Of a DNA stretch of 64,000 nucleotides, positions 8,429 through 63,740 are shown in pieces (the first letter of the stretch is position 1; every line of letters begins with the position of its first letter). Source of the DNA: a virus; IMG/VR virus record IMGVR_UViG_3300037567_000704, positions 22,732 through 86,731 of that record; one strand, given 5' to 3'. The notes beneath the pieces are model-generated. The model had not been told where the DNA came from. It saw only the letters and a program-made list of their open reading frames with translations, and ran no database searches. Position numbers and translations under genes: made by a program.

Positions 8429-11400
8429 GCGGCATCACCACTATGGTCGCTAACATTGAACGTCACATCACCTTTGTGCCCCTTCGGATGTAACGCTTGA
8501 CTAAATCTAGGCTTGACAGAAAAGTCCATTCTTTTGATTTCACTCTCGTTTTCTGCTATTTGTCTTCTTCGAGGTGCATCTGAACGATAGTGTTGTAGTG
8601 TGTTTTCACTCATCACCAAACGTGTTACTGGACTCGTAATAGTCGTCTTGTCAAACTTGTCTACTCCCACTACTTCTGTTCCCAGAATCTTAGGTCCTTG
8701 ACTGGTAGGGGTGATGGTGGAAGAACCTGAAGCCATGTAGAAGACTGGGACATATGGAGCATTAGTGTTTGGAGCCGCCGAACTTGGAAAATTATTGGAG
8801 GCGACTCTCGGAGTAGTCACTTCGTAGGTGTATATACCGTATTTTCCTCCTGCAGATGCTCTGAAATAATCAGTAGGGGTGTTAGTTCCTTTATTGACTG
8901 TGTTGTTGTATTGGGGAGTTCCTGAAATAGTAGCGGGTAGGGTTCTGAACATCTCTACATGATTCTTATCTAGTAATCTCACAGGTCTGAGTAGCCATTT
9001 GATGCTCTTATCACTCTGATTATTTTTGATTGTTGTTCTATTGAAATCAACATTTTGATATGGGTTAGTGGTTTTCACTGCTCCCGAAAGCCCGTCATAA
9101 CCCCAACCTGTATCATCGAAAGGATTCCCATAGTTCCTAGTTTCCAAAATATAGTTACCTCCCAAAGGGCTCATGTTGCTCGTATGACTGAATCTAAGAG
9201 CAGAGCGAGGTTGCACACCGAAGGCCAAACTGGTCAAGTCGAGATGCGCTAGAGTCTGTGACCCTCCTAGTAAGCACCCATGCAAGATGGTTCTCTGTCC
9301 TACATTGCGGTCAGTATGCAGGCTGTGGGCCTCTGTATTGATTGCGATATGGTCCTTCTCCACACTTTCCACATTATGTCCGTCTATGCCTATTCTTGGA
9401 CTGTTTCGGCTTACTGCGTCCTTGTGGGGACTTGTCCCGATTATCTCCTCAACCCTATCGCTCACCACAGCATCTGGTTTCAGTAACCCATGTTCGGAGA
9501 TTTCGAGCCTCGCACTGATTCCTCTTGGTATTTCATCGGCCTGTAACACATCGTTACGGGGGCGTAACAGCCCTGTTACGGCTGGTGGCTCTGCCGTGTT
9601 ACTGCTCAAAACTAACCCTGTAGTGTGTATTGGTTCAGAAAGTTCCGTCAGAATATCTTCATTGAATTGAATTGGATATCTGACTCCTCTACCGTTGCCC
9701 ATGTCTCCTATCCTCATGGAATGAGTCGGCGCAAAAACATCCACCATAGTGTTGGTATCAGTGTTATTTACAGCGTTTGACCTACCGCATAGCAATGGTG
9801 GTTCGTTGTCCAGATTTCCAGAAGAGTCAATGACTGGGGCGCTGATGCCGGTGAGAACCTCGTAGATTGGTTTACCATAATTCCAGATTCTAGCGTGAGG
9901 AGTTCTATTGTTGGCTCTATCGTATTCGTAGACATCACCACAGTCCCATGCTGGTCTGATGCCAAATCCACGTACTGGAGCACGCCTTACGTCCTCTCCA
10001 CGCTCATTGCCCCACCAATCCACCAAATAATACTGCGCGGCCTCAGCGAGGCTGTAAATGCCCTTTCCTGCGACCTCCCCCCACCAGTCCTTATTCATGT
10101 TAGAATTAGAGAGTAGAGTTCTGATAGGCGTTCCGAACGGTCTGGTCATTCTTCTGCCTTCGCTATACTTCACTTGCCATTCTGGTTTGTCGCAACCTAA
10201 CATGCCTGCGAAATTAGTCTGTCTCTCCATTACACCGACATAGGTAGTAGTGTAAGAAACGTTAGACTGCGAGCCAGTATCTCCACCAGCATAAGCCCAT
10301 GTCATGGCCTCATGTTGAACGAGTGGGCCAGATGCGTAATCAACAGTGAAATTATTATCAGAAGAAGCATCGTCCTCCAGTTTTCCTCTACCTGTGAGAA
10401 TACCCCAAGTCGGTTTGTTACAGGCTTGACGCACAGCGATACGCCACCCATACGGATATTTTCTGTTATCACCACTATAACCTGAGCCCATAGCCGTGAA
10501 AGTGATTCCAGAAGAGCCCTGAGCATAGTTTTCATCCAACCCGTCTTCATCATTCCAGAAGTAGAAATCGTTGGAAGCATACTTTCTGGGTATATTCCAT
10601 GATATGCTTGCTTGTGTGTATAGGTCAAGCCTACTTGTGAGAGGCCCACCACGACTACCACATGGCCAGAACTTGCTGAACATTATTTTCTGACTATCGA
10701 AATTAGTTCCACCCTGTGCTTCGTACCCAGAAAATGCATGAATTTCAGCACCAGTGGATGCAACACCATCTTTATCTTCTGGATTAGGACTCTTCATTCG
10801 GAAATCAAATGGACCTAAACTCATTGCATATACTGAATCCTGATAATGTATGGTCTCAAAATGTTCAGGCATGCAATTATACGGTTTCTTATCTACTGCT
10901 CTATCAGATGTTAGATTACCCCAAGTACGAGAACTGTCGGAATAGAAAGTATGTGGCCTACCTAGATTGTAATGCCAGAGACATAAGTATGCATCTGGAA
11001 TATGTAATGCAGTTGTATCTCTAGTCCCCTTCTCCACTTGTGGAAGAATCATGGTGAAAATGCTATTATTCGTATCAGTCATCACTTTCCCTGCTGATAG
11101 GTTGTTGTATGGATGTGTCAGTCTGAGCGTTGTTTCGACCGAAGCGGCGAGTAATGCTGTTAGTTTAGTCCAGAAAGAGCCAGAGACTGTAGTTGATGTA
11201 AACTTCTTAGGTTCATTGATAGTTCCTATTTGCAATCCATACCTTCTGGTGTATGGTAGAGTCTGTATGTTACCATCTGCGTCGGTAAATTCTAACAATT
11301 GACCATATTGTGGGGTTTCTGGAAATGCACTTGCATCATCTACTGTGATTTCTCTAGTCCCACTACTTTCTGCATGTATAGTTTTGACTATACACTTAGG

Positions 11401-14400
11401 GTTTATCGAGGTATTCTGCAATACATGTGAGTATATCGCAGGGTATTTCGAAGGATATCCAGCAATTGTTAATTGCACTCCTATACTTCCGAAGGTACTT
11501 CTCTTCATCATGTAGTAGTTATCCAGACGATGGTGTGTTAAATGCTTGAAATTATTAGATGAACCATCATCTGGGGCTATTTTGTGAACTATGCTCCACC
11601 AAGGAATATTGAGAGTGTAGCCCGGTGTGGAATTACTGAACAGTTTTGGATGATAAGGAAGTGTTCTTCTGGTGAAAGCAGGTGATTCAGTGCCTTCTAC
11701 CCCAAACGGGTTGTAGAGTAACAAAGGAGGTATGTTGGTGAACTGTTCACCGTGGTCAGGATTGATATCCAGCATAACCTCATTGATGAAAATCTCACAA
11801 CCTCTTACATCTGCTTGAGTTGTTTGAGCCAATAAAAGGGCAACTGCGCCTGTGCCGCTTATTCCAGAAGTCGCTGGTTTGCGTCCTATGACTGTATTCA
11901 CCTGTTGTCCTGTTAGAGTATAACTGCCACCATCAACGTGATATCCGATTAATTGGTTGGAAAAAGTATTCGGCTGTATGACGATTTGATACGCTCCTAC
12001 TCTTGCTGGGTCTGGGAAAAAATCGTCCAATGTATAATTTCCAGAGGCTTCCAAAACTACGGTATGGCCTCCTTGTTGGTTGATTTTTCCAGCAACACCA
12101 GTAGATGCTAAAACCCCGTAACCATCGTTTTTCAGTTTACTTTCGAACATCAAAGTGAATGCTCCACCATGAATATCGCTTGGACCACTAGGCGCAGCAT
12201 TCAACGAACCGAATGCAATTTCTGCATCTTGTAGATGAAAATAATTAGATACTCCTGACGCTATATCACTTTTTTCTGTGGTCGCTGTCGTATTTTCTTT
12301 GAGTAGATTCCTATCTACAGAGCCTCGCAGTGATGCATTTTCTGCAAGATGACTACGATACAGTCCTTGGTATACAGGGTGAGCCCAATGACCCGGAAGC
12401 ATGGGCATGGTCGGTGTGACGAAATGATGCCCCATTCTCGGTAGAGGCATTGGTGTAATCACCGCTTTGTTGTAGATGTTGTAAGCGAGAGTCTCTGTAT
12501 TGATGGTCCCGTAGGTCCCTGTCGAATACTGGGTTTTTGCCATGTCTGGGGAATTTCCACTCACTTCAGCGTGGTCTCGTAAACGACGTGCTGCGAAGAA
12601 GCGATTGCTTCCTGCGGGGATGTAATAGGAAGGAACCACTTTCAGATTCGTAATAGTTTGAGCAGCCATGAAGTCTGTAAAATCAACGTCACCCACAACA
12701 CCAGTGAATGTTTGTCCACTTATTCCGGTATACGAAGCCACTACACTTTCTTCAGTAGATGAATTGTAGATTCTGATAAAACGCCTACCAGTCGTTGTAT
12801 GAGCCATTTCCTTGCTACCGAAATCAGCAGCAAAAATATCCGTATTAGTGGTCGGCATTAAAACTGCAGCATTGACTGTCAAAGTTGTCCCACTGAAAAT
12901 ACTCGCAGTTAAAATTCTTGTCTCTACACCATTTTCGTGTGAAAAAACTGTCGGATAACGGTGAGTGTGACTGTGCCCCATTTTCGTAACGTGGAAGTAG
13001 AGAGTCCTGTCATGCTGTTCGTAACTGGTTCTCAATGGAGCGTTGTCTGTGGTCTCTTTCCAACCAGCAGTAGTGCTGTCCTTGGTCAATGGGTCTATGT
13101 GTTCCCAGTTGTGGTCTTCGTATGTCGGTCCCTTTCTCGGACCAGAGACGCTGTTGTCGAACAAATTACCCAGATAATCCTCATTCAAATCAGCATGCAT
13201 CATTCCTCCTGAACCCATAGTTTCGTTCTGATAACCTTGCAGTCTATCGAATCCTGACCTCACGATGATGTTTCCGGGTATGCTGTTCGGGTCTGGTAGT
13301 TGTATTTTCAGATTGGGGGCTATACCACTGTTTGCAAGAGACGGGGACATTCCTTTGGCCTCTCTGTCAGTTACTTTGCTGAAACCTCGAATGATGGTCC
13401 CCAGTGGGCTACCGCCCTCGATTATGTGCTCTTGCCCGGAATCATCCTTGACGGTGATTTCCTCGAACTGCATTTCCTCGTTCGGAATATTCAACACGTT
13501 TCCTATCAACAGGGGATTTTTGCTCGCTAACTGAGGATGGGCTATTTCCTGTGCTTGTAGAATTGGTAGCATAGCACTGTTTGTAGTCTCGAAAGAAAAT
13601 CTCACATTCCCGAAAATCTTCTCTCCAGTAGTATACGCTACGCCGTTTTTCACCCTCGTCATCCAAGGGACAGCGCCAAGCCCTCGTGCGTTAATTGCAG
13701 GAAGACTGAGATTTCCGCCATCCATTCTCTTCCATACTATTTGTTCTACCGTGAAGTTTTTCGCAGGCGCTCTATCATAGAGGGCGTATGCATTCACATC
13801 TCCTGCCCAAAAATCATTGACTCTCAAAGTAGAACCGTTATCATATTCTGTCGTATAATCCACATCTTCATAGAAATCATCTGCAACATTGCGCGTCACT
13901 CCTGAGTCTTCCAAGAAGAAAGAGCCTATGGAGTGGTCAATATCGAAGAGCATATCTCCTGTTTTGTGCAATCCGGGTATGGCGTTTTCCACTGTGGTGT
14001 TGGTGGCGGCAGCCCCATGCAGGAAGTATTCGGCATTGAATGGCGCAGCATCTGCTCCATGCGTAGCGGAAAACGTGATTGAGGGAACAGTAGGAGTCTT
14101 ATGCACCAGCGCTTCTACATTAGGCCCAGCATTCGCAGGTGCGATGAAACGGTCTTGACCGTGGAACCTCTCGTCCCAACGTGTCGTGCCAGCATAATGT
14201 ATGGGATTTGAAACACTGTTAGCAGCCGCCCCTTTGACTTGTAACCAGTCTCCTAGAGCAGTTATGCCATCTCTGTCATATTTTGCTATGAGAGCGCTCT
14301 CGCACTCGTAACTCACGACGAGGAATGCTCGACCCAACACCCCTTGTGGATGAGTCATGAAATCCGGTAGTGTGGTATCAACGTAAATCGGGGGTTTTGA

Positions 14401-17400
14401 GTGGAGTGTGTCTGGCCCATCATTATCAGATGTTTTTCTCGCTCTGGTGTAACCTGTATCATGGGCCAATGTGAATCCTGTAGTATTGGCGTAAGGGACA
14501 TTCAGGAATCCCATGAGATTAACGCCAAGATTGTCTATTGGTGGTAGACTCTCAGGACTTCTGGGCATAGGAGCCACCACTGGTAGATTACCAAATGCAG
14601 TCATAGCAGAACTGGCACTGCCATAAGGAGAGAATCCTAACATCGGATGCCAAGCGCCTAGACCCCCAGCATACCCTTCTGTGCCCACTTTGAGGCTGTT
14701 CAAGTAGGAATAGCGCTCTCCGGCCCATCCTGCTGCTCCTATCGGTCTGGTGCGGTCTATGGCATCAACGATTCCAGAGAAGTGAGTCTGGCACATATGG
14801 TCGCGTGTTGCCGCTACTTCGTTGTTGTAACGATGAACTCCTGCTTTCGACCAGACATGTAACACATCACTAGCGCTTATGGCTGGGAAGTCACTGATAG
14901 TTCCATCAGTATCATACCAAGTGGTTCTGTCTTCAAACTTCATCTGCCCGCTTATCCTGTTAGGAGCAATGTAGAACCTCACTTTGAGAGTAGAGTCGTT
15001 ATTCACCTCTCTCGCATAGTAAGGAGCAAAGCCGCCAGCAGCAGTCCTCAGCCAGCCGCATGCCGGTATCTGTTCCAAACGGTCTCTATTGACTGTATTG
15101 TTAGCAGTATAGCCGCTCATTTCCACAGTGATGTGATTGTTGCTTGGCGTTGTATTTGAATTGGTGATATTGGTGCATTCGACTTCTACCCAACCATATC
15201 GGTCCTGTCGCATGGAATTACCCATAGACGGCATGTGTGTCCCTCCCATCGCTTTGAGCGCCCCTGCTCCGGGATAGGTGTTGATTGCCATACCCATCAC
15301 TGTGGCGAGTTCCTCTCCATTCTGGCATCTAGTCGCATCAACGATGATGTATTCCATATCCACATCAGCGCCTACCAAATCTCCTTCGGCTGCTGCATAA
15401 CCCAATACCTTCGTGGTTATTGGACCAGCGACTCTGTATGCGCTTGAGTGCAACTGTGTTGCTGCTCCCCATTTTTGCAGGATTGTATTGCTCTTGGGAT
15501 GAGGCGGGTTGAATGTGATTTGGTTGTCCATCCAGTGTCCTCCGGGATGGTAGCCTCCATCCATGTGGAAGACCATATCAGCAGCCATTGCCACACCATG
15601 CCCTATCACTGAGCAGTGCCTCATTGGATGGGCCCTGTCTAGTTCGTCGTTTATTCCGGATGTGGCTGTGTCTGCGTTGAAATGAGTCCCATACATCCTT
15701 CCTGACTCTGGTCCTTGTTTGAGTATAGCCACATTGGGCTTTCCTTGTGGTGGCTCCCAGTTGATAGTGGAACGCCAGTGGAATCTGCCTCTCGCCAATT
15801 GATATGTCGAGGACTCAGGCATGTAGAAGCCATCGTAGTTCTGTATGTGATTCGGTAGTTTAACCGTCCCAGACACTGGGACTTTGGACCAAGTGTTACC
15901 TATCGTCACCACTGCTCCGGGATGAGGCTGCTCTGTGTTAGCACCACTCATGTTAGCGCTATCTGCTATCTCTTGGGTGAACGGGAATGCCTGTCCGGGA
16001 CCGAAGACGATGTATGTGGTCTTGTTCTCCACATTGCTCGTGCCACTGCTGTTCTTGTGGTCCTCGTAACGCGCTGTGGGATGAGCGAATCTCAGTATGA
16101 GTGGGCTTGGTTTCTGAACTCTCACTCTGAGCGATGTCGTGGAGTGATTGTATGGGGAGGTATTACCGCTGTTGGGATGCCCGGTGTTTATCGTAGTCCC
16201 TGTCTTTGAGAGGTCCGGGGATAGGATGCTATCTTTGTTGAAGAACGGCGGTAGTATGCTGCCACGATGCTGATTGCAGAATGCAGCGCCGGGGAAGAAA
16301 GCGAACATCGCATTGCAGTCCAACAAAGCGAAACTGGTGGATATCTCGTTGGCATTCTGTATTCCTGAGGTCCCTGTGGGTCCGTTCGCATAAGGATGGG
16401 TATAGAATGTGGAGTAGTCATTCATAGTCCCGTCGTTTATATCGAGGGTCACACCGCTGAATCCACCACCGAAGAATAGTGGAACGCTGTGGTCCACACT
16501 GCCCTTCCCTCCTTTGAAATGAACTATGGGTTCTGAGAAAACACTACCGAGAGAACGAAGCCCGTCGAACTCCATTGTTCTCTTGATGTCTCCGAAATGT
16601 GAGAATGCAAGTGTGTCGTCTATATCAGCAGTAGGCCAATCCTCGGACCTGCCTTCCTCATACCATACCAATGTAGTCTTGTTAGTCACAAAAGAAGCAG
16701 TGCCGGGATTCAAACCCTCGACTACGATGAATTGCTTATCAGCCATGTAGATTGTCTTCTTCTCACCGAAGGATGGAACTCTGTCTGTGTTTCCCTCCTC
16801 CCCTGCCGGTATCAGGAAGTTCCACATCTCATGAGCCAAAGGGAACTGTTTGGTCGTTCCATCCCAATTATCACTATTTCCAGCAGAGTTGTCGTAAACA
16901 ACAATCGGGTTGTTTATCATCGGTAGGATGTGGTCACCACTGTGTCTGGTGAAACTCTCTCCTTTGAGGTTCCTTCTCCATTCATTGGTGTCCACCGGGT
17001 TGTTGAAGGAGTCCACGAGTAGTGGTGTTGCTGTATTGGTGTTCGGTCCTCTGCCTCTTGTTATGATTTGTAAGACTGTGTCGGGTATGTAACCACAAGC
17101 CATTCTCTTCTGATTTTTGATATCGGTATTTGAAAGGGCTCTAGATGTCCCGAAAGCCCAACCAGAACCAGTATTATCAGTCTTCTCAACCTCTCCTAAC
17201 TCTATGTGTGCTGCTTGTATTCCCATGTCCCGATGAAACGAGGCATAGAAGAAGTCAGAAAGGGGTTTGACTGGTTTCGTTGTGTCATAACTTCTGATTA
17301 TAATTGCGTCTGCAGCAACTCCCCATTCTCCAAACGTCCTACCATCTGTCGCATACATCTCTCTGCAATCGAATGCTAAACCCTTTGGATTGTTGATATC

Positions 17401-20400
17401 TGAATCATCAGCGTTGATTGCTGCGGTTGAGATTACTGCAAGCAACTCGTCAGTGACTATAGTGGTCCAGTTCAATAATGGTGAAATCAAATATGAATTA
17501 ACAAATGTGTCTCCATTCTGTGAACTCTTTATCCCGAAGAAAGTATGTGGTCCACTTTTGTTGTTCTGTGTTCTATGAGTATAGGAGAAGGTCATGCCCC
17601 CCTTTCCATCTTGAGAATCCGTGATTTGGATGACTCCATTCTTCAGAGGAAAGCCGAGATAACCGAGTATGTCATGATGTGCACAAGTGTCTCCGTTTTG
17701 AAACGGTCTCTCTAAACTCACAGTAAGACTTGTAGCATTAGCGCTCTTGCTTATAGTGCAATTCACCGCTATGCTAGGCGCACTAACCCCTCTCCACCTG
17801 TTGCCACAATAGGCTTGGTCTGTAATAGAAACAGCAGAGCCAGACCCTCCAGAAATGTCCAATCTACCAGAAGCGTCTCCACTACCATACATGTGTTTGC
17901 CCATAGTGAATCCACCAAGACCCACGTCTCTGTCGTCAATGAAAACACACACTTCGTTGGATATTGTGTCTGGCAGGGTGGTGTTCTCGTTTGCGAAGCC
18001 CTCACCCATAGTCCTGTAGATAAATCTCAGACCGTGTTTTCCTCCTCTGTGGTCCTCGAACTGCAGTCCATACAAAGAGGAGTTTCCCACTACATCCGAC
18101 TTCAAGTCAGAGGAATTGGTATGACTGGTATAAGAGACATCAGTGAGACTGCCGTATCTGCCTCTGAACTTTTGAGAGCCCTTCTTGCCGAATCCCCACA
18201 CACCTGCGTCTGGAGCCCAACCGGGAATGCCAGATGCTACAAGTCCACCGAAGTTCACTCTCCCTATCGCTCGCTTACCTACTCTCAGACCCTCTACCAA
18301 TACTGATGATGAGCCCTCAGTCTCGAAAGACTCGGTATTGACTGTATTGAACTGTTTACCACTACCCAAATGGTGAGATGTTCCCCTCAACACAGAGGCA
18401 TCTGCATCTGTTACATTATCATCGAAGGTCACGAAGTCGGTATTGCTCACTACATCTTCACCAGAGTCCTCTGGGGTGACGTATTGTGTGAGTGTGGTGA
18501 CAGGAGCGAAAGGTCTACCATGCTTGTTGAGAGGCATGGGAGCGGGATGCATGTTCTCTCCCTCCTTCTCCTCAGGCAATGCCCAGAAGTTCCTCCAACG
18601 TCCTCCATGTCCAATGAGGAACTCAGGCTGATAGACTGATTGTCCCTTGCTGTTATCCAGCCAAACGCAGAAGTTCCTACCACTCGCTCCCGGCACAGTG
18701 CTATGTATCACCACAGTGAATCCGATATTTCCGTTCTTGTCTTGCACCTCTCTGCCTATGTGTGCTCTGACATAGCCCATGTGAGTCCCTCGGTCACGAG
18801 TGGAGAACGCCTTGTCACTGTCCCACCAAGCAGTCGGGTCATGAGCACTGCCTGTAGTGTCCTTGTCCACTACTATCTGTCCCTTAGGCGCTCCTGCTTG
18901 GTTGATTTGACGAACAATCTCCAATGCAGCAGACTTTACAGATACCACTCCGTCCTTCTGAGCCACAGAGCCACAGTCTACCGTTAATCTCCTCACGAAG
19001 TCCATGTCCGTCCACTGTTTGAGGTGCTGCAAACGAGATTCCGAATGTGATGTAAGGTCGAGTGCATTTGCTCTTTTTCCTTTAAGGCAAAGGAAAGCAG
19101 GTATGACGCGAGTTCCGTCTGGGGTATCGAAGAACGTGGATGGGTCTCTGAGAGTATGAGAAATGCTAGTATCTGTCCTCAACTTGACTAGAGAGGTAGT
19201 AAAACTATCTGATACAGAGCGTTTCGTTCTTGAGAAACTGTGGTCTGGATTCGCTATGAGTGGATTGACTGTATTGTCGTTGGTTCTGAGTAAGACGCTG
19301 TCTCCTTCTGAGAAGGTCTGGTAAGCACCGTATATCGAATACCCATCATGGACGTGATGCCCATGAGCCTTTCCATATATGCCCGGAGACAAAGAGCCAC
19401 TTGCATAGTTGAACATGCTGTTCGGCAGAGTCCCGCTATTGAGTGAAGTAAGTAATCGAGTGGATAGGCTGTTCGCTATATCATGAGCATAGGCACTCTC
19501 GATGAACTTGGATTGCTGAACACTGCGTATGTATGGGTTCTCGCTTGGGAAGCCGTTAGCAACGTCTATCTGAGTAGTAAGCCAAGAAGGTCCTCCGCCA
19601 TTTAGTGTAGCGGCGTATTCCATCGTATCTGAGATTACATTGCTTGTACCAATCACCATCTTCTTAGGCCATCCAATCTTGACAGCATCAGCGCTAGTCT
19701 GAACCTGCATATGCAGGTCTTGGAATGCCACGAACTCCCTGTCATGGGCGACATCATAGAGAAGAACACGAGCATGTCCATCCTCTGAGAGATAGGGGTC
19801 CACATAAGCGACCTTGGGCGCTTGACTCGCTGTCAGACCGAGAACCTTGTAATTCTCCTCTACAGTCTTGTTCACATGCTGGGCGTAATTCTGTGCAGTT
19901 TCAAGACAGGTGTCTCCAATTAGGAAGTTTTCAAGCGGTATGCTCTCTCTCGGTCTTGTGGCTAATGCTCCCTTACCACCGTTGAACCCCGTCCACACTA
20001 ATGCCTCATTGAGAACCCCTCTGCTCTTAGAGAAGAGTCCCTCTATGGAATGTGGGTTGTTCATACTCATGTTGGCCCATATCGTATCGCCACTACGCAG
20101 TCCACCCGGAGCATATGGATAATTCCAAGTTTTGTTCAGGATTGCCTCATCATCATCTACCTGCGGCATTTCAATACGAAGAGGCTTGCTACTGGTATCG
20201 TTTTGGCAACTCCCAGTCAGAGTCACTGTGTAAGTTCCGTCATCATAGTCCTCTATATGAGACACTGTTCCGATATGTAGAATCTTACTCGCAGTTTCTT
20301 CTGAGTATATCGAATCCCCCTCTCTGAGGTTCAGACCCGATATTGTGTTCGAACCGGCCAATCTACCATTCCCATTGGTAATAGTGCAGGTTGAGACGAG

Positions 20401-23400
20401 AGTTGATGCTGAGATAGTCCAAGCATCATCTCCTGCTGGTTTGAAAGTCTTGGCGATAATCTCATTGTTAGCAGCCTTGGTTGTATTGCTTGGAGGAGCA
20501 CCACTTACGTTTCCGAATATGCTCCTCGTCTTCTTAGTGAGCGTTATCTCATTACCGGGCAGATTGGTAACCCAAGAAGGCTTACTGTTACCAGTATCAT
20601 AAAACACGAACATTAGAGTGTTGGCAGATACAACCTCATTAGAGGTGTTCTTGCTGATTCTTCCATAGTAATGCATGCTGCTCGGAGACAGAGAAGCACT
20701 TGCATCTGCTTGATAGAGATACTCTCCAGAACTGAAGGTATATGTATTCATATCATCATAATCTAAATCTGGGAACAGAGCCATATCCTCATCACTCATA
20801 GTTACAATTAATTCATGAATGAACTTAGAACTAGCGCCATCCAATACTGACCACTCTACGTTAGTCACTACGCCTGTGGCTCTACCACTCATCACTTTAG
20901 GCGCGTGAGGATTGCTTTCCGGTCCAGCCTTGAACTCCACCGCGCTGACATACTGTCTGATACCGTAATCCACATTGCCTCCCTGTGTCTTCGCGCTTGC
21001 ACTGTCATGGTAGTATTCACCTCTGTTCTCGAAATCAGAGGACGGGGTTATGCTGTCAGAGCCTATGGGTATGAGTCCCTCTGATAGAGAAGGGCCACCC
21101 GGTGAAACGGCTGCTCCCACTACAGCGCTTTCTACAAAACCGCTTGAGAAACCCCAATTGCTATCATTGGGTATTTTGAGATACCGTGTGCCCACCAATG
21201 GTATGTCTTCGTAATATGCCCATTCCCCATTAGCGAGGAACACCTTACGGTAGTTTCTCACGTTACTGCCGACGTTCTGGTATGATGCATCGCTCAGACT
21301 TACACTGTGGAACAACTCGCTATTGTCTGGGTGAAGGTGATAGAATGAGGCAACTAACTCGAACTTGTCAATACGGGTTATGGGCGTGAACTTCTTCTCC
21401 GCCTTGTTCATCGTGAAGGAAGACCTCGCCTCTCTATCTGCAGGCTCTACTCCCTTGTGTCTCCTACCTACAGGGCTGGGGTTGTATGTGTGTGCAGTCT
21501 GAGTAGCATCAACATGAATCTTGAAGGAGTTGTCTGGTCCGGGTAGAATACCCTTCTCAGGCTCATCGAAGAATTGGTTAGCAAAGAATGGAATCTCCAC
21601 TATCGCTCTCGTACTCGCGTATTGTGTTCCCAACTGGTAATCATGAGAGACATCGTTCATAGTCTGGAACATCCTGTCATTGACAGTGGTCCCATCCTCA
21701 GCAAGCGATGACTCATCGAAGAACTCGTCATTGAAGAACGACGTTGAGATATACATGTCGCTACCATTAGAGACTGCGCCTAATGCTGTCTCTGTTGCCT
21801 CCAACCATTGAAAGAAATTTTGGAACTCGGTTCCGTTCGCTAACAAGAACTTACCATCGCCAAAAGCGCTAGCAGCAGTGAATACGAACTCGTCTCCGTC
21901 CTTGGAATCGTAAAGAGCATTAGAACCGTCCTCCAAGTAGACTCTGCCCTTCATCGGGAATCCGTAAGTCCCCCAAGACGCAAGGTCGTCTGCTTCGTTG
22001 TTGAGTGGTTTGACGTAGATTTTACCACCATTAGTCGTAGTTGTGATTCGGTAACCAAGTGTAGCACAGTTCCTCCTCGTGGAGAAGGGCAAGCGTGCTA
22101 ACGGACTGGGGTCAAACGTCGGTTTGGTGTCCATAGCCCCTTGTCCGGGACCACCGAGAGTAACCGTGACGACAGGCGCATTGGGTTCTATCTCCTTGAC
22201 TATGTGAGAGTCCGGGCTGCCTTTACCTCTCACGCTCACGTTCCTGTTGGCTGTGGATTCTGACAGACCCACGCAATGGACAGAGGTGAAGTTCTCACCT
22301 TCCTTGTCTGACTCTTTGACAGAACGGACTCTGGCTCTCGACATGAGATACATGAGTGATACAAAGTTCGCCTCCTCACCATCACTAACGGAAGAACGTA
22401 TCTTTGCGAGTTGATTCACTCTTCTTCTGTCAGAAGGCTGTATGAACAAACGCATTCCTTCCTTGTTACCACTGATGGAACCATTGTCAATAATATCGAA
22501 CATCTCGTGAATATGTGTATTGGAAGAGGTGACCCCCTTGTCGAATTCACCGTTGGAAGGAGAATCGAGGACCACGCTAGGCTCCCTTCTGTGAAACTCC
22601 CCCTTGTCCGTCAAAGTCTGATTTTTGTCTCCATGGAATGTATCAATCACTATACGATGAAATACCGAATCATGACTTGTGCTCGGTGAATGGGAAGCGG
22701 TTATGATTTGTGGAGTAGTATTGGGATTTATGTTTGCAAGAACCCCTACATACAATTCCTCCCCATTGATTAGGGCAACTGCTCGATTCTCGTCCAATGT
22801 GATATCATTTCCTATTGATGCTATTATACCCACGAAAACCAGACTGGAGGTGTAGATAGTATCATCCACTGCGATATTGACGTTACCAGTTGTATTACCT
22901 GTTGTGGTTATCGTATTGCCGCCACCAGCATTCTGATTACCGCTAACAGTAATACCTGTAGGAGTCAGTGGTTTGTAGTTGATAGGAGTGAGACTCTCAT
23001 CCAACTCGTCATCAGACTCATAGCCTTCACTCGTATCTCCAACAAGAGAATGTGATTGTATCAGATTACCGACTAATTGCTGACCTTCGAATCTCGCTTC
23101 TATGTAACCTCCGGGAGCATAAAGGGTAGCAGTGATAGAAGCGCTGGTCACTGCAGTTTTTATCAATTCGTATATGGTAGTGGTTCCTGTGACCACTGTG
23201 GTCCCTGCAGGAACGGTCTTTTCCACCATCAACAGGGGTTGGATAGTGCCACTCATGCTTGCGCCAGTCAAATCAATAGCGTTGTAGTAAATTTTGACGA
23301 ATGGGGCTAAGTCGTAAGTAGAAAGTGCTGGAACATGTAATATGGCTACCCGACTCTCCTCACTTGGTCGTAAGTGATGCCTTCTGGTCTCAGCATTGAT

Positions 23401-25221
23401 ATTATCCAGATTGTCTGGAACTGGGCCTTTGAGCATGAAAGCCTTGTAATCGAAATTAACTCCACCTATCGCCAAGAGTTCCTTGTTCTCCTTGGTGAGA
23501 CCGTTGTTGAAGAGCGCCTCACATCTAGAGGAATTGACGACTTTATTGATTTCGAAAACATCTTGTTCTCTGAAGATGTCTACACGACTGTTCACTGATA
23601 TCTGTTCGCCTGCTCCCGTTCTTCCTACATCGTATATGATATCAATCAAATCAGCAGACCCGTCTATTCTCTGGTCAATTATTTCCTCGTTCGCTCTTGG
23701 TAACATTCTCAGGAACTCGTGCCCATCAACGTGATTGAGTATGTGTCTGCCACTATGTCCTATCTGAAAAGAAGTATCAACCGTAGCAGGCCAGACAACA
23801 GCGAAGGGATTATCACTGTCATCAGTGGTATTAGCCATGTTGCTTGAATAAACGAAACCGTGTTGAGCGAATGGGCTCTCGTCAATGACCATCTGACCCG
23901 TCCTGTCAATTATCTGTGTGGAGAAATGAGGGTCTTGGTATGGCTTTCCTGTAGCATTGTCGATGAGCAAGTCAGCGCCTATTACTACGAAGTGATTGTC
24001 CAATCCTGTTGTTCTGGTGTGTAAGGCGCTACGAAGCCCATTGCTGGAATTGGGAAAATCAAGATGGATGCTGGAAACTAGCATGTTTCCAGTGGTTGTG
24101 TTTATGTTATGGAGTCTGACCCTCTCTGGTGGTTTACCGTTCGGTTTGTGAGTGTCCAAGTCTATGCCCCCAGCATTGATGAGAAGATTGTATGGAGTGT
24201 GGGAAATGCTGTGCATCACCGGAGTGCCAGTTGATTGTTGGTAATCCACCACCTTGTAGTCCCCACCCGAATACTTGTGAGTCCCAGTGCTGTCCTTGGA
24301 AAAGACATAGTTACCTGATACCGTTGATAGTCCGGTCAGTTTCTTGGCCAGAGTAATAGCATCAGTTGTGGTTATTGTGATTTGAGATATGGTAACAGTA
24401 GCGCCATCCATAGTGGTGCTGTTGTTGGCAATGGCAGAGAACTTGTAGGTCCCTGAGATAGGAGCGATTGGCTCCTCGAACCTGTAAAGCAATAACGTAT
24501 TCTCGTTCCTGAGTGGTGCAGACCTGTCAATAGCCTCCTCTGAAAAATCGCTACTGATATGAAGGGCCTCCATCACACCTCTGAACTTGCCTCCTTTACC
24601 TCCTACATACAGATGTGAATCGTAATTCGCTATGGTTACATTCCTGTTCAACAAGGATTTTTGAACCATTAACACCCCATTGATGTAGAGGTCTATCGAG
24701 TTCGACCTTACAGTAGCCACAATGTGAATCAACGGCCTGTGGTCTATGTTCAAAGATGTTGCATCATCAGAAGAACCATCATACCTGTTGTAGGAATCAT
24801 GGATTCCTCTGAACTCTGCTGGAGGGTATACCGTTCCCTCGTAGCCTCTGCTGGTCACTGACTTTGCTGTAGAGAGAGTCTCGACTACAGTGCCGCTGTC
24901 AGAATTGAGATAGACTTCGAATACAGCAGGTCCGGGAGTATCAACATCTCCGATTTTCAATCTGAACTGCCCTTCCTTCTCTACTACAACGCCACCACAG
25001 TCAGGAACCACCCAAGCCTCGATGCACAACTGATTGTTGAGAGCACCAGACAAATTGCCGTGACTGCCTGCTTGGTTGTCTTCTCCTAGTATGTTACCTA
25101 CGCTCTTGGTCCCCTGTGTGGTTGCCTTGCCTAGTCTGCTCATTGCCCCTTGTGGGACGATTATACTGTCAGTCACCCCATCGAACATGAAAGCGTGATT
25201 GGAACGACTCATTACTGGCAT
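8425..25221 (-). CDS. Giant tail-tip / adhesin protein with N-terminal LamG-like domain
   Basis: 5598 residues, one uninterrupted frame covering about 26% of the window. The start ATG at 25221 has a GAGGTGAAGC leader. Residues 1-250 look like a concanavalin A/LamG jelly roll: HAFMFDGVTDSIIVPQG, CIEAWVVPDCGGVVVEKEG, IHIVATVRSNSIDLYINGVL and LYVGGKGGKFRGVMEALHIS. A second possible LamG-like segment lies near residue 4320 (about 12300-11650). The rest is Gly-, Asn-, Ser- and aromatic-rich with few helices, suggesting serial beta domains. No peptidoglycan hydrolase or protease motif was recognised. The gene sits between a 419-residue tail protein and the hub-like protein, so it is probably the main tail-tip or host-recognition component. 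Carbohydrate or glycoprotein binding by the LamG domain is inferred. Confidence 0.8.
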   Translation of the reverse strand: MPVMSRSNHAFMFDGVTDSIIVPQGAMSRLGKATTQGTKSVGNILGEDNQAGSHGNLSGALNNQLCIEAWVVPDCGGVVVEKEGQFRLKIGDVDTPGPAVFEVYLNSDSGTVVETLSTAKSVTSRGYEGTVYPPAEFRGIHDSYNRYDGSSDDATSLNIDHRPLIHIVATVRSNSIDLYINGVLMVQKSLLNRNVTIANYDSHLYVGGKGGKFRGVMEALHISSDFSEEAIDRSAPLRNENTLLLYRFEEPIAPISGTYKFSAIANNSTTMDGATVTISQITITTTDAITLAKKLTGLSTVSGNYVFSKDSTGTHKYSGGDYKVVDYQQSTGTPVMHSISHTPYNLLINAGGIDLDTHKPNGKPPERVRLHNINTTTGNMLVSSIHLDFPNSSNGLRSALHTRTTGLDNHFVVIGADLLIDNATGKPYQDPHFSTQIIDRTGQMVIDESPFAQHGFVYSSNMANTTDDSDNPFAVVWPATVDTSFQIGHSGRHILNHVDGHEFLRMLPRANEEIIDQRIDGSADLIDIIYDVGRTGAGEQISVNSRVDIFREQDVFEINKVVNSSRCEALFNNGLTKENKELLAIGGVNFDYKAFMLKGPVPDNLDNINAETRRHHLRPSEESRVAILHVPALSTYDLAPFVKIYYNAIDLTGASMSGTIQPLLMVEKTVPAGTTVVTGTTTIYELIKTAVTSASITATLYAPGGYIEARFEGQQLVGNLIQSHSLVGDTSEGYESDDELDESLTPINYKPLTPTGITVSGNQNAGGGNTITTTGNTTGNVNIAVDDTIYTSSLVFVGIIASIGNDITLDENRAVALINGEELYVGVLANINPNTTPQIITASHSPSTSHDSVFHRIVIDTFHGDKNQTLTDKGEFHRREPSVVLDSPSNGEFDKGVTSSNTHIHEMFDIIDNGSISGNKEGMRLFIQPSDRRRVNQLAKIRSSVSDGEEANFVSLMYLMSRARVRSVKESDKEGENFTSVHCVGLSESTANRNVSVRGKGSPDSHIVKEIEPNAPVVTVTLGGPGQGAMDTKPTFDPSPLARLPFSTRRNCATLGYRITTTTNGGKIYVKPLNNEADDLASWGTYGFPMKGRVYLEDGSNALYDSKDGDEFVFTAASAFGDGKFLLANGTEFQNFFQWLEATETALGAVSNGSDMYISTSFFNDEFFDESSLAEDGTTVNDRMFQTMNDVSHDYQLGTQYASTRAIVEIPFFANQFFDEPEKGILPGPDNSFKIHVDATQTAHTYNPSPVGRRHKGVEPADREARSSFTMNKAEKKFTPITRIDKFELVASFYHLHPDNSELFHSVSLSDASYQNVGSNVRNYRKVFLANGEWAYYEDIPLVGTRYLKIPNDSNWGFSSGFVESAVVGAAVSPGGPSLSEGLIPIGSDSITPSSDFENRGEYYHDSASAKTQGGNVDYGIRQYVSAVEFKAGPESNPHAPKVMSGRATGVVTNVEWSVLDGASSKFIHELIVTMSDEDMALFPDLDYDDMNTYTFSSGEYLYQADASASLSPSSMHYYGRISKNTSNEVVSANTLMFVFYDTGNSKPSWVTNLPGNEITLTKKTRSIFGNVSGAPPSNTTKAANNEIIAKTFKPAGDDAWTISASTLVSTCTITNGNGRLAGSNTISGLNLREGDSIYSEETASKILHIGTVSHIEDYDDGTYTVTLTGSCQNDTSSKPLRIEMPQVDDDEAILNKTWNYPYAPGGLRSGDTIWANMSMNNPHSIEGLFSKSRGVLNEALVWTGFNGGKGALATRPRESIPLENFLIGDTCLETAQNYAQHVNKTVEENYKVLGLTASQAPKVAYVDPYLSEDGHARVLLYDVAHDREFVAFQDLHMQVQTSADAVKIGWPKKMVIGTSNVISDTMEYAATLNGGGPSWLTTQIDVANGFPSENPYIRSVQQSKFIESAYAHDIANSLSTRLLTSLNSGTLPNSMFNYASGSLSPGIYGKAHGHHVHDGYSIYGAYQTFSEGDSVLLRTNDNTVNPLIANPDHSFSRTKRSVSDSFTTSLVKLRTDTSISHTLRDPSTFFDTPDGTRVIPAFLCLKGKRANALDLTSHSESRLQHLKQWTDMDFVRRLTVDCGSVAQKDGVVSVKSAALEIVRQINQAGAPKGQIVVDKDTTGSAHDPTAWWDSDKAFSTRDRGTHMGYVRAHIGREVQDKNGNIGFTVVIHSTVPGASGRNFCVWLDNSKGQSVYQPEFLIGHGGRWRNFWALPEEKEGENMHPAPMPLNKHGRPFAPVTTLTQYVTPEDSGEDVVSNTDFVTFDDNVTDADASVLRGTSHHLGSGKQFNTVNTESFETEGSSSVLVEGLRVGKRAIGRVNFGGLVASGIPGWAPDAGVWGFGKKGSQKFRGRYGSLTDVSYTSHTNSSDLKSDVVGNSSLYGLQFEDHRGGKHGLRFIYRTMGEGFANENTTLPDTISNEVCVFIDDRDVGLGGFTMGKHMYGSGDASGRLDISGGSGSAVSITDQAYCGNRWRGVSAPSIAVNCTISKSANATSLTVSLERPFQNGDTCAHHDILGYLGFPLKNGVIQITDSQDGKGGMTFSYTHRTQNNKSGPHTFFGIKSSQNGDTFVNSYLISPLLNWTTIVTDELLAVISTAAINADDSDINNPKGLAFDCREMYATDGRTFGEWGVAADAIIIRSYDTTKPVKPLSDFFYASFHRDMGIQAAHIELGEVEKTDNTGSGWAFGTSRALSNTDIKNQKRMACGYIPDTVLQIITRGRGPNTNTATPLLVDSFNNPVDTNEWRRNLKGESFTRHSGDHILPMINNPIVVYDNSAGNSDNWDGTTKQFPLAHEMWNFLIPAGEEGNTDRVPSFGEKKTIYMADKQFIVVEGLNPGTASFVTNKTTLVWYEEGRSEDWPTADIDDTLAFSHFGDIKRTMEFDGLRSLGSVFSEPIVHFKGGKGSVDHSVPLFFGGGFSGVTLDINDGTMNDYSTFYTHPYANGPTGTSGIQNANEISTSFALLDCNAMFAFFPGAAFCNQHRGSILPPFFNKDSILSPDLSKTGTTINTGHPNSGNTSPYNHSTTSLRVRVQKPSPLILRFAHPTARYEDHKNSSGTSNVENKTTYIVFGPGQAFPFTQEIADSANMSGANTEQPHPGAVVTIGNTWSKVPVSGTVKLPNHIQNYDGFYMPESSTYQLARGRFHWRSTINWEPPQGKPNVAILKQGPESGRMYGTHFNADTATSGINDELDRAHPMRHCSVIGHGVAMAADMVFHMDGGYHPGGHWMDNQITFNPPHPKSNTILQKWGAATQLHSSAYRVAGPITTKVLGYAAAEGDLVGADVDMEYIIVDATRCQNGEELATVMGMAINTYPGAGALKAMGGTHMPSMGNSMRQDRYGWVEVECTNITNSNTTPSNNHITVEMSGYTANNTVNRDRLEQIPACGWLRTAAGGFAPYYAREVNNDSTLKVRFYIAPNRISGQMKFEDRTTWYDTDGTISDFPAISASDVLHVWSKAGVHRYNNEVAATRDHMCQTHFSGIVDAIDRTRPIGAAGWAGERYSYLNSLKVGTEGYAGGLGAWHPMLGFSPYGSASSAMTAFGNLPVVAPMPRSPESLPPIDNLGVNLMGFLNVPYANTTGFTLAHDTGYTRARKTSDNDGPDTLHSKPPIYVDTTLPDFMTHPQGVLGRAFLVVSYECESALIAKYDRDGITALGDWLQVKGAAANSVSNPIHYAGTTRWDERFHGQDRFIAPANAGPNVEALVHKTPTVPSITFSATHGADAAPFNAEYFLHGAAATNTTVENAIPGLHKTGDMLFDIDHSIGSFFLEDSGVTRNVADDFYEDVDYTTEYDNGSTLRVNDFWAGDVNAYALYDRAPAKNFTVEQIVWKRMDGGNLSLPAINARGLGAVPWMTRVKNGVAYTTGEKIFGNVRFSFETTNSAMLPILQAQEIAHPQLASKNPLLIGNVLNIPNEEMQFEEITVKDDSGQEHIIEGGSPLGTIIRGFSKVTDREAKGMSPSLANSGIAPNLKIQLPDPNSIPGNIIVRSGFDRLQGYQNETMGSGGMMHADLNEDYLGNLFDNSVSGPRKGPTYEDHNWEHIDPLTKDSTTAGWKETTDNAPLRTSYEQHDRTLYFHVTKMGHSHTHRYPTVFSHENGVETRILTASIFSGTTLTVNAAVLMPTTNTDIFAADFGSKEMAHTTTGRRFIRIYNSSTEESVVASYTGISGQTFTGVVGDVDFTDFMAAQTITNLKVVPSYYIPAGSNRFFAARRLRDHAEVSGNSPDMAKTQYSTGTYGTINTETLAYNIYNKAVITPMPLPRMGHHFVTPTMPMLPGHWAHPVYQGLYRSHLAENASLRGSVDRNLLKENTTATTEKSDIASGVSNYFHLQDAEIAFGSLNAAPSGPSDIHGGAFTLMFESKLKNDGYGVLASTGVAGKINQQGGHTVVLEASGNYTLDDFFPDPARVGAYQIVIQPNTFSNQLIGYHVDGGSYTLTGQQVNTVIGRKPATSGISGTGAVALLLAQTTQADVRGCEIFINEVMLDINPDHGEQFTNIPPLLLYNPFGVEGTESPAFTRRTLPYHPKLFSNSTPGYTLNIPWWSIVHKIAPDDGSSNNFKHLTHHRLDNYYMMKRSTFGSIGVQLTIAGYPSKYPAIYSHVLQNTSINPKCIVKTIHAESSGTREITVDDASAFPETPQYGQLLEFTDADGNIQTLPYTRRYGLQIGTINEPKKFTSTTVSGSFWTKLTALLAASVETTLRLTHPYNNLSAGKVMTDTNNSIFTMILPQVEKGTRDTTALHIPDAYLCLWHYNLGRPHTFYSDSSRTWGNLTSDRAVDKKPYNCMPEHFETIHYQDSVYAMSLGPFDFRMKSPNPEDKDGVASTGAEIHAFSGYEAQGGTNFDSQKIMFSKFWPCGSRGGPLTSRLDLYTQASISWNIPRKYASNDFYFWNDEDGLDENYAQGSSGITFTAMGSGYSGDNRKYPYGWRIAVRQACNKPTWGILTGRGKLEDDASSDNNFTVDYASGPLVQHEAMTWAYAGGDTGSQSNVSYTTTYVGVMERQTNFAGMLGCDKPEWQVKYSEGRRMTRPFGTPIRTLLSNSNMNKDWWGEVAGKGIYSLAEAAQYYLVDWWGNERGEDVRRAPVRGFGIRPAWDCGDVYEYDRANNRTPHARIWNYGKPIYEVLTGISAPVIDSSGNLDNEPPLLCGRSNAVNNTDTNTMVDVFAPTHSMRIGDMGNGRGVRYPIQFNEDILTELSEPIHTTGLVLSSNTAEPPAVTGLLRPRNDVLQADEIPRGISARLEISEHGLLKPDAVVSDRVEEIIGTSPHKDAVSRNSPRIGIDGHNVESVEKDHIAINTEAHSLHTDRNVGQRTILHGCLLGGSQTLAHLDLTSLAFGVQPRSALRFSHTSNMSPLGGNYILETRNYGNPFDDTGWGYDGLSGAVKTTNPYQNVDFNRTTIKNNQSDKSIKWLLRPVRLLDKNHVEMFRTLPATISGTPQYNNTVNKGTNTPTDYFRASAGGKYGIYTYEVTTPRVASNNFPSSAAPNTNAPYVPVFYMASGSSTITPTSQGPKILGTEVVGVDKFDKTTITSPVTRLVMSENTLQHYRSDAPRRRQIAENESEIKRMDFSVKPRFSQALHPKGHKGDVTFNVSDHSGDAA

Positions 25222-62219: not shown

Positions 62220-62552
62220 GTGAGCGATGGAATAGTGAAGATTCTACCCGCGCTTCCAGCAATAGGAAGTGCAATTTCTGGTGCTCTAACAGCCGCGAGA
62301 GCCTCAAAAATAGGTCAAGCATTAGGAAAAGTAGGAGCACAAGGCAAAAAACTCGCAGCAGGAGCAGCAGGAATAGGAGCGGCAGGAGTAGCAGGTGCCA
62401 AAACAGCCCAAGAAAGCCCAATGGGACAGGCTTGGGGGCACTTACAGAACGCTTCTGCAGCAAATCAAGCAGCAAATCAGCAAATGACCTCCGAAGCGAG
62501 ACAATTATCGAGAGCCGGAGCAGGCACTGGCAGCACAACGATGGGGAACTAG
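62220..62552 (+). CDS. Ala/Gly-rich protein on the opposite strand, with AW motif variant
   Basis: 110 residues from GTG 62220, the only plus-strand gene accepted here. Residues 4-60 are Ala/Gly-rich with glycine-zipper spacing (IGSAISGALTAARASKIGQA, LAAGAAGIGAAGVAGAKTAQ), which could insert in membranes. Residues 67-78 are SPMGQAWGHLQN, which aligns with the S-x-PM-x-x-A-(W/F)-x-x-L-K motif of its neighbours; this makes the frame credible, because the minus-strand reading is just Leu-rich. No clear ribosome-binding site precedes the GTG. Its stop overlaps the stop of the convergent gene in one CTAG. Confidence 0.65.
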   Translation: MSDGIVKILPALPAIGSAISGALTAARASKIGQALGKVGAQGKKLAAGAAGIGAAGVAGAKTAQESPMGQAWGHLQNASAANQAANQQMTSEARQLSRAGAGTGSTTMGN

Positions 62553-62755
62553 ATTCTGTTATACTGAACGAAGAGGTTTTCACCATCTTCTTGCAGTCCC
62601 GTATCATTTGAGTTCATCATTTTGATGATTGTTCCGAGGATAAAGGACTTCTCCTCCTCAGTGAAAGACAAACCGACAGGTTGAGTCTTCAAAAGTAGCC
62701 AAGCGCGATTAAAAGCCGCACTTGGAGGTGTATTTGGACTATCTCCGATGACCAT
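62549..62755 (-). CDS. Very small protein with AW-LLK motif
   Basis: 68 residues. Motif at residues 11-25: PSAAFNRAWLLLKTQPVG. The rest is a helical, charged segment (SFTEEEKSFILGTIIKMMNS) and ends LFVQYNRI. No ribosome-binding site is obvious. Converges with the plus-strand gene. Function unknown beyond the shared motif. Confidence 0.7.
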   Translation of the reverse strand: MVIGDSPNTPPSAAFNRAWLLLKTQPVGLSFTEEEKSFILGTIIKMMNSNDTGLQEDGENLFVQYNRI

Positions 62756-62796
62756 TCTGGAAATTACGGTGATGGTGCTTTATTAAAAGACCTTCG

Positions 62797-63264
62797 TTAC
62801 TCTTGCACAACGGGATTATTGACCATTTCTTCATCATTAATTTGTGTAGACTGCAGATAATTGGGGTCAGCGGCCAATCTCCTTTGATGTTCGTCCCAAA
62901 TGGCTTTCCCATCATCGTTTTGAAAGAGGAAATCGGGAAATGACTTGAATGCTTCCTGCCCACCGGCATCTCTCATCTGATTGTCATCGAAAAACATACT
63001 CATTTTGTTCATCATTAACCTATACCACTCATCATCGGCCATTTCTTGTAGATTTATTCGCCCCTCGTGACCAGCAATACTCCCCTGTCGATAGTCTTCA
63101 GCCTCCATTTCCCTCGCATGAGCCCAAGGGGAGGCTATTTTGTATGCATCTACCTCTTTTTCCTCAGGTATTTCCTCTTCTAGTTTGGGTTTACCCCATC
63201 TAGTGGGCATACCGGGCCTCCTACTACCCTTGAGAAAGACCCAAGCGATGTCAAAAGCACTCAC
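62797..63264 (-). CDS. Small protein with N-terminal AW-FLK motif
   Basis: 155 residues from GTG 63264, giving MSAFDIAWVFLKGSRRPG, which matches the N-terminus of the gene upstream (MSAFDKAWAILKQ). A longer frame from TTG 63294 adds ten residues and is less likely on this comparison. The body is charged and helical (DDEWYRLMMNKMSMFFDDNQ, EAFKSFPDFLFQNDDGKAIW). Lies immediately downstream of the curved-DNA region. Function unknown. Confidence 0.75.
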   Translation of the reverse strand: MSAFDIAWVFLKGSRRPGMPTRWGKPKLEEEIPEEKEVDAYKIASPWAHAREMEAEDYRQGSIAGHEGRINLQEMADDEWYRLMMNKMSMFFDDNQMRDAGGQEAFKSFPDFLFQNDDGKAIWDEHQRRLAADPNYLQSTQINDEEMVNNPVVQE

Positions 63265-63292
63265 AATAGGGACGAAAGGCCTTCGGACTATC

Positions 63293-63418
63293 AATTTTGA
63301 GCAAAATAAACCTTTTTTGAGCGTTTTTTGTTGCTTTTTGCCATTTTTAGAGCAAAATCAGTTAAAAAACCCGATTTTAAGCCCAAAAAGGCAGTTTTTA
63401 TCATTTTTCGAGCAAAAA
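63293..63418. promoter_or_regulatory. Predicted intrinsically curved DNA (about 13 phased A/T tracts)
   Basis: Tract centres average close to 10.1 bases apart over about 120 bases. Phased A-tracts bend DNA additively. The block ends 29 bases upstream of the GTG at 63264, a promoter-like position for the leftward gene set. Function is inferred; the phasing is directly visible. Confidence 0.75.
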
Positions 63419-63439
63419 CCCAGTTAAACGAAATTAGGT

Positions 63440-63471
63440 GGACCATCATGGTTGCAGCCATCCGATGGTCC
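63440..63471. promoter_or_regulatory. Perfect-stem inverted repeat (hairpin)
   Basis: GGACCATC at 63440-63447 pairs with GATGGTCC at 63464-63471; the inner ATGG/CCAT pairs extend the stem with a two-base bulge and leave a TTGCAG loop. Lies between the curved DNA and the next gene upstream. There is no U-tract following on the minus-strand transcript, so a simple terminator is unlikely; a protein-binding or RNA-structure role is possible. Confidence 0.65.
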
Positions 63472-63536
63472 TTAAATGGGTATTTTCAAGATTTGATTCT
63501 GAACTGAGCGTGACCAAATCCTCTGTTTCATCTTAA

Positions 63537-63740
63537 TCACTCTCCGTTTGGGTAATACCCAACAAACTCATACGAACCATCCGGCAAACGGTGAATCTTA
63601 CCTCTCCCGGCGGCTTCGTCTGCTTGTGCTTCTTCAAAAGTTATATCCGCAGAATTATCTAACAGTGTTCTTTCGCCTAATTGTGGCATAGGTTCATCGC
63701 CTTGCTTTAGAATCGCCCAAGCCTTGTCAAATGCACTCAT
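63537..63740 (-). CDS. Very small protein with N-terminal AW-ILK motif
   Basis: 67 residues. Begins MSAFDKAWAILKQGDEPMPQ, the clearest example of the shared motif at a protein N-terminus. The C-terminal half (ITFEEAQADEAAGRGKIHRL, PDGSYEFVGYYPNGE) may form a small fold. Start ATG directly touches the stop of the upstream gene (TAGATG). Function unknown. Confidence 0.75.
   Translation of the reverse strand: MSAFDKAWAILKQGDEPMPQLGERTLLDNSADITFEEAQADEAAGRGKIHRLPDGSYEFVGYYPNGE

Follow-up and report, generated by a model that had tools for sequence, protein, structure and literature searches.

The window analysed here, a stretch of 64,000 nucleotides, corresponds to positions 22,732–86,731 of an 86,731-bp IMG/VR virus contig (G000:22732-86731). 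Read by eye, the plus strand appears to carry the early genes, for a B-family polymerase, RFC- and PCNA-like proteins, an ERCC4-like nuclease and a thermosome-like chaperonin, and the minus strand carries the terminase, portal and prohead protease genes, as Pfam and PHROGs confirm. The same gene content and two-direction layout are found in magroviruses, the viruses of Poseidoniales (PMC10768690), and on both grounds we assign the contig to the magroviruses of these marine archaea. Its B-family polymerase matches 24 of the 28 related contigs. The minus strand also contains a single open frame of 5,598 codons (8425–25221).

The region of interest lies at the head of the leftward late block, approximately 580 bp from the contig end, where a curved segment is flanked by two small genes, g67 and g154. 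We call the g154 block late because the virion genes share its strand. The features are as follows.

62549–62755, minus strand: g68, the next gene after g154, with orthologues in seven loci including L010, L012 and L013, which have a curved gap of 181 bp directly upstream of the gene
62756–62796, minus strand: short gap with GGTCTTTTAA..AAAGCACCAT, similar to the part of the relatives' 181-bp gap that is nearest the start (alignment partly by eye)
62797–63264, minus strand: g154, directly downstream of the bend, with a GTG start, beginning MSAFDIAWVFLK
63265–63536: non-coding gap of 272 bp containing the curved segment, at the head of the leftward late (virion) block, defined from gene calls and sequence
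63295–63418: curved segment, 13 helically phased A/T tracts of 4–6 bp, predicted bend ~219 degrees per 105 bp
~63440–63471, minus strand: hairpin GGACCATC...GATGGTCC between g67 and the curved segment, not exceptional
63537–63740, minus strand: g67, upstream of the 272-bp gap, beginning MSAFDKAWAILK

The curved segment occupies positions −31 to −154 relative to the g154 start codon. No relatives of g154 were found in viral and genome contigs, and none of the truncated gene at the contig end when it was searched as a C-terminal frame, although a 28-residue piece of the latter matches L048. The description of the gap as the longest non-coding one of the window is plausible, since the longer gaps in the list of a simple gene caller contain open reading frames missed by that caller. 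Many small late proteins begin with an FDxAWxxLK-like peptide, which is also repeated within larger ones; it occurs at 8 places between 48889 and 63740 (0.1 expected by shuffling), is found also in L008, L010, L012, L025 and L042, and may serve, alongside the prohead protease system, as a tag for capsid targeting or assembly.

The original prediction had placed about 13 A/T runs at 63293–63418, with an average spacing of about 10.1, and held that chance AT-richness would not give such regularity. We counted 13 A or T runs of at least 4 bp, with centres from 63296.5 to 63416, which remain in phase with the helix through several turns; A and T tracts alternate in phase. The spacings are 8–11 bp (mean 9.96, sd 0.94) and the best-fit period is 10.05, so that the regularity holds at a value slightly different from 10.1. 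The phased sum of the tracts is 11.95 of 13 unit vectors, a value reached by none of 20,000 random re-spacings of the same tracts (maximum 10.8), and the dinucleotide shuffles of the segment (n = 3,000) did not exceed 8.4. The density of tracts is 13 per 130 bp, compared with a window mean of 0.75 and 6 in the runner-up stretch.

The curvature profile that had been proposed as a check places the predicted bend of the segment well above that of shuffled sequence. In the wedge model, the segment is bent by 219 degrees over 105 bp and the runner-up of the window by 127; the highest bend in shuffles of the whole 64-kb window (n = 30) was 159 degrees, and dinucleotide shuffles of the segment itself gave at most 170. 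The end-to-end distance of the calculated 3D path is 0.38 of the contour length, with 0.75 the next lowest value in the window. Estimation from the tracts only gives 130–213 degrees at helical repeats of 10.0–10.5, the absolute bend in degrees varying with the repeat assumed. Because the segment ranks first in the roll-only, tract-only and 3D-path models, and still first, if narrowly (168 vs. 160 degrees), with the direction sign of the wedge table reversed, we regard it as the unique maximum of the window. These calculations support the prediction of strongly curved DNA, and a near U-turn of the DNA is to be expected from the approximately 125 bp of phased A and T runs. DNA elements of this kind are known, and the segment is a genuine and extreme example; what is new here is the predicted strength of the bend and its occurrence in magroviruses. 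The second-highest curvature of the window belongs to an Ala/Gly-rich frame (62220–62552, plus strand) that is antisense to the leftward late block in which it is embedded; a homologue of this frame is equally placed in L010, L012 and L013.

For comparison, 80 loci were fetched via the neighbouring GTPase-like gene and 11 related contigs were read whole. In these 11 contigs the curvature maxima are 128–155 degrees per contig vs. 219 here, none being comparable, and no exact 20-mer of the curved segment matched a viral contig beyond its own record. Several other maxima of the relatives proved to be coding, for example an Ala-rich gene and, as judged by eye, the L065/L066 gap. A 26-kb contig from another sample (L005) encodes several proteins identical to those of the window and ends inside g426, some 2 kb before reaching the curved segment.

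The closest relatives, G002 and G004 (polymerase 76% identical) and G005, have retained g68 together with two neighbouring genes, and in each of the three the gap directly upstream of g68 is exactly 181 bp long. Sequence alignment of this gap with the 272-bp gap gave no credible homology. When the phased-tract bend was calculated for 412 magrovirus non-coding gaps, the 272-bp gap ranked first (z = 10) and the 181-bp gaps third, fourth and seventh. Their wedge-model bends over 126 bp are 115, 132 and 149 degrees, reached by 28, 2 and 0 of 1,000 shuffles, respectively. The bent stretch lies at −39 to −164 from the start of g68, a position comparable to that of the segment relative to g154 in the window. 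It should be noted that the curvature of the relatives is moderate and model-dependent, being not significant with the reversed-sign table, and that the three are close kin and thus amount to roughly one independent observation rather than to independent lineages. There is no general enrichment of curvature in magrovirus gaps (mean z 0.03, 434 gaps), which makes the curvature a property of the place upstream of g68 and not of magrovirus gaps at large. Two divergent gaps of more distant magroviruses, L071:2983-3281 and L060:850-1205, also rank high in phased-tract bend, 2 and 12 of the 412.

Overall, the shape is partially conserved in close relatives. The original prediction had named as counter-evidence relatives that keep the genes and lack the phasing; weaker phasing is in fact kept together with g68, while the sequence and the extreme curvature are not conserved.

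Within the gap, the following words and repeats were found.

63299–63306, plus strand: GAGCAAAA, copy 1; the same 8-mer occurs in the curved gap of L010, L012 and L013
63350–63357, plus strand: GAGCAAAA, copy 2
63410–63417, plus strand: GAGCAAAA, copy 3
63335–63428, plus strand: decayed direct repeat, 63335–63366 and 63395–63428, about 60 bp apart
63303–63310, minus strand: weak candidate TATA-like box TTTATTTT upstream of g154, identified by eye

The three copies of GAGCAAAA are 5 and 6 helical turns apart. In the 181-bp gap of the relatives the 8-mer is present once, within a block identical in all three and beside a TATA-like TTATTAAA; TATA-like boxes are clearer in the relatives than the candidate of g154. 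The high-affinity MC1 site AAAAACACAC(A/C)CCC(C/A) is absent from the curved segment.

We estimate at roughly 0.5 the probability that the curved segment is the intrinsically curved upstream part of a magrovirus late promoter, and an unusually strong curved promoter region, not an origin or a packaging site, is the most likely identity judging from the sequence. This reading follows from the position of the bend just upstream of virion-protein genes together with the weaker bend in the closest relatives. The 272-bp gap is a non-coding, same-strand gap upstream of a late gene, in the leftward block with the terminase, portal and prohead protease genes. Counting against a promoter, the bend precedes the extra gene g154 and not g68 directly. 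Promoter, replication origin, recombination and packaging had all been named as roles that curved DNA marks; evidence was found for the promoter alone, in the late-block gap and in the phasing of the relatives' gap at a similar distance from the start, whereas the origin is disfavoured and packaging and recombination found no support.

Curved upstream regions with phased A-tracts are known from prokaryotic promoters, as in a survey of archaeal promoter curvature (PMC8553660) and in the upstream bending cited in PMC3940949. The segment resembles them in having phased A-tracts in an intergenic gap upstream of a start codon; it differs in its 13 tracts and its predicted ~219 degrees, far above the rest of the 412 magrovirus gaps, and is a candidate promoter only.

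From the computed phasing, predicted bend, place in the gene block and weaker phasing in close relatives, we infer promoter activity, a bend-reading protein and late timing. The phased tracts would give approximately 125 bp the form of a near U-turn directly upstream of the start of g154. Such curvature would favour the binding of an architectural protein that bends DNA, for which MC1 is the likeliest candidate in Marine Group II hosts; a viral late regulator acting at the three copies of GAGCAAAA may be an alternative or additional reader. The bound protein would then shape or clear the promoter for TBP/TFB and RNA polymerase, and the late genes would be expressed strongly or at the right time.

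A chromatin protein that binds bent DNA, host MC1 for instance, is the probable reader of the bend. MC1 is encoded by most MG-II archaea (PMC7613761) and has a preference for bent DNA (PMC3928310), so a suitable protein is available in the likely host lineage. The curved segment lacks the SELEX motif, and MC1 binding is putative. HU, MC1 and TFIIB genes were not found above the cut-off in the viruses searched. A weak TFIIB-like match below the cut-off, in an early-side frame of G004 (65488–65670), may be a viral TFB.

The early/late control region of phi29 (PMC3100819) offers a parallel, with A-tracts in a viral early/late region and about 120 bp turned for the late switch. In phi29, however, the individual tracts of the p4 sites matter and not the global curvature, and p4 and p6 make the hairpin (PMC3100819). 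Since the phi29 tracts matter individually, the tracts alone do not prove that bending is the function.

It is unlikely that the segment has no bending function and is an A/T-rich spacer in which local duplication of units of one or a few helical turns, followed by drift, produced the phasing. The decayed repeat about 60 bp apart indicates that a duplication of about six helical turns may account for some of the phasing; a short 11-bp array is also present, the sequence and the extreme curvature are unique to this contig, and the segment lies in a fast-changing part of the genome. Head-to-tail copying of a 10-bp unit, however, would not give alternating A and T tracts, the phase is held across all 13 tracts despite diverged spacers, and the corresponding gap of the relatives is phased too.

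A replication element, either a bent auxiliary site acting as enhancer of a nearby origin or an origin in its own right, is somewhat less probable still. The relatives have a conserved box, TWTRRYCNCACACARCGCTG, which lies upstream of the late block between lineage-specific repeats and an A/T-rich block, and it occupies the divergent early/late gap wherever the flanks are complete. We list the resulting candidates below.

Candidate magrovirus replication origin (TWTRRYCNCACACARCGCTG, CGGAG word and A/T-rich block): L010:2920-3130, L012:3105-3336, L013:1082-1313 and L008:2960-3230; also L007, L053, L048, L050, L146 and L147

The lineage-specific repeat is TTAATCGC, in five to six copies, at the candidate origin of L010, L012 and L013, and other repeats occur elsewhere. 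In an exact scan of 2.9 million viral contigs, only 10 contigs matched TWTRRYCNCACACARCGCTG: eight are magrovirus loci already collected, and the two added by the scan, L146 and L147, have the same layout. The cumulative GC-skew minimum lies 0.4–2.6 kb from the box in four contigs.

In the window the box is absent even with 3 mismatches allowed. The GC skew of our contig is below zero at its right end and above zero at its left, and about 19 kb is missing between the contig ends, as estimated from the gene order of G004. The origin should lie in the missing part, within a few kilobases of the curved segment, and we predict it to be a separate element off this contig. A search with the first early gene, made to recover the missing part of the genome, matched only the three known relatives.

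This proximity is what speaks for a replication element. The curved segment lies in the final 0.7 kb of the contig, and since the predicted origin of the relatives is 1.7–2.3 kb upstream of g68, the segment should be within a few kilobases of it; the threefold GAGCAAAA, spaced by 5 and 6 helical turns, fits as well. As in iteron-type origins with bent A/T-rich DNA, there is a repeated short word in an A/T-rich stretch near a predicted origin. Unlike them, the segment has no iteron array, no unwinding block and no CACACARCGCTG core; its gap is not a divergent early/late one carrying TWTRRYCNCACACARCGCTG, and no GC-skew switch occurs here, the skew being still negative at the right end. Moreover, the origin-like element of the relatives lies elsewhere and is mostly modest in curvature.

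A transcription terminator or insulator, formed by the hairpin and several T runs after g67, is very unlikely. Archaeal termination uses T runs, the hairpin follows g67, and five T runs are on the transcribed sense strand. The hairpin next to the curved DNA, announced as strong, bears out that description only in part: it has an 8-bp stem, but 16 of 200 shuffles fold as well or better, and no T run directly follows it. The opposite strand has more T runs, and termination needs no phasing. A bacterial promoter/terminator scan made no call inside the 272-bp gap, and the Rfam search returned nothing.

Still less probable is a packaging (pac/cos) or recombination site. Some phage packaging sites have bent DNA and the contig ends about 580 bp away, but the terminase genes are about 15 kb distant and the ends of other long contigs of the group fall elsewhere, with G001 and G004, for example, running through; no recombinase or integration signal was seen. 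Periodicity arising from a small protein gene that was overlooked and encodes a helical repeat can be practically dismissed: the 56-codon minus-strand frame that spans the segment (63291–63461) was not called coding and has no relative in the magrovirus loci searched.

Taken together, our results make the curved late-promoter region the preferred reading. A broader proposal, which we offer tentatively and consider improbable as it stands, is that magroviruses of this lineage use strong curvature as a cis-acting switch for late genes, read by host MC1 or by a viral regulator at GAGCAAAA, so that the shape and not the sequence would be selected. No magrovirus has been cultured (PMC10768690), and we found no description of magrovirus promoters or origins in the literature searched. 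A curved gap conserved by shape at the head of the late block provides a concrete candidate promoter for this group, the comparison of relatives yields as a by-product a candidate replication origin for magroviruses, and the bend suggests a possible link between archaeal chromatin, through MC1, and the timing of viral genes.
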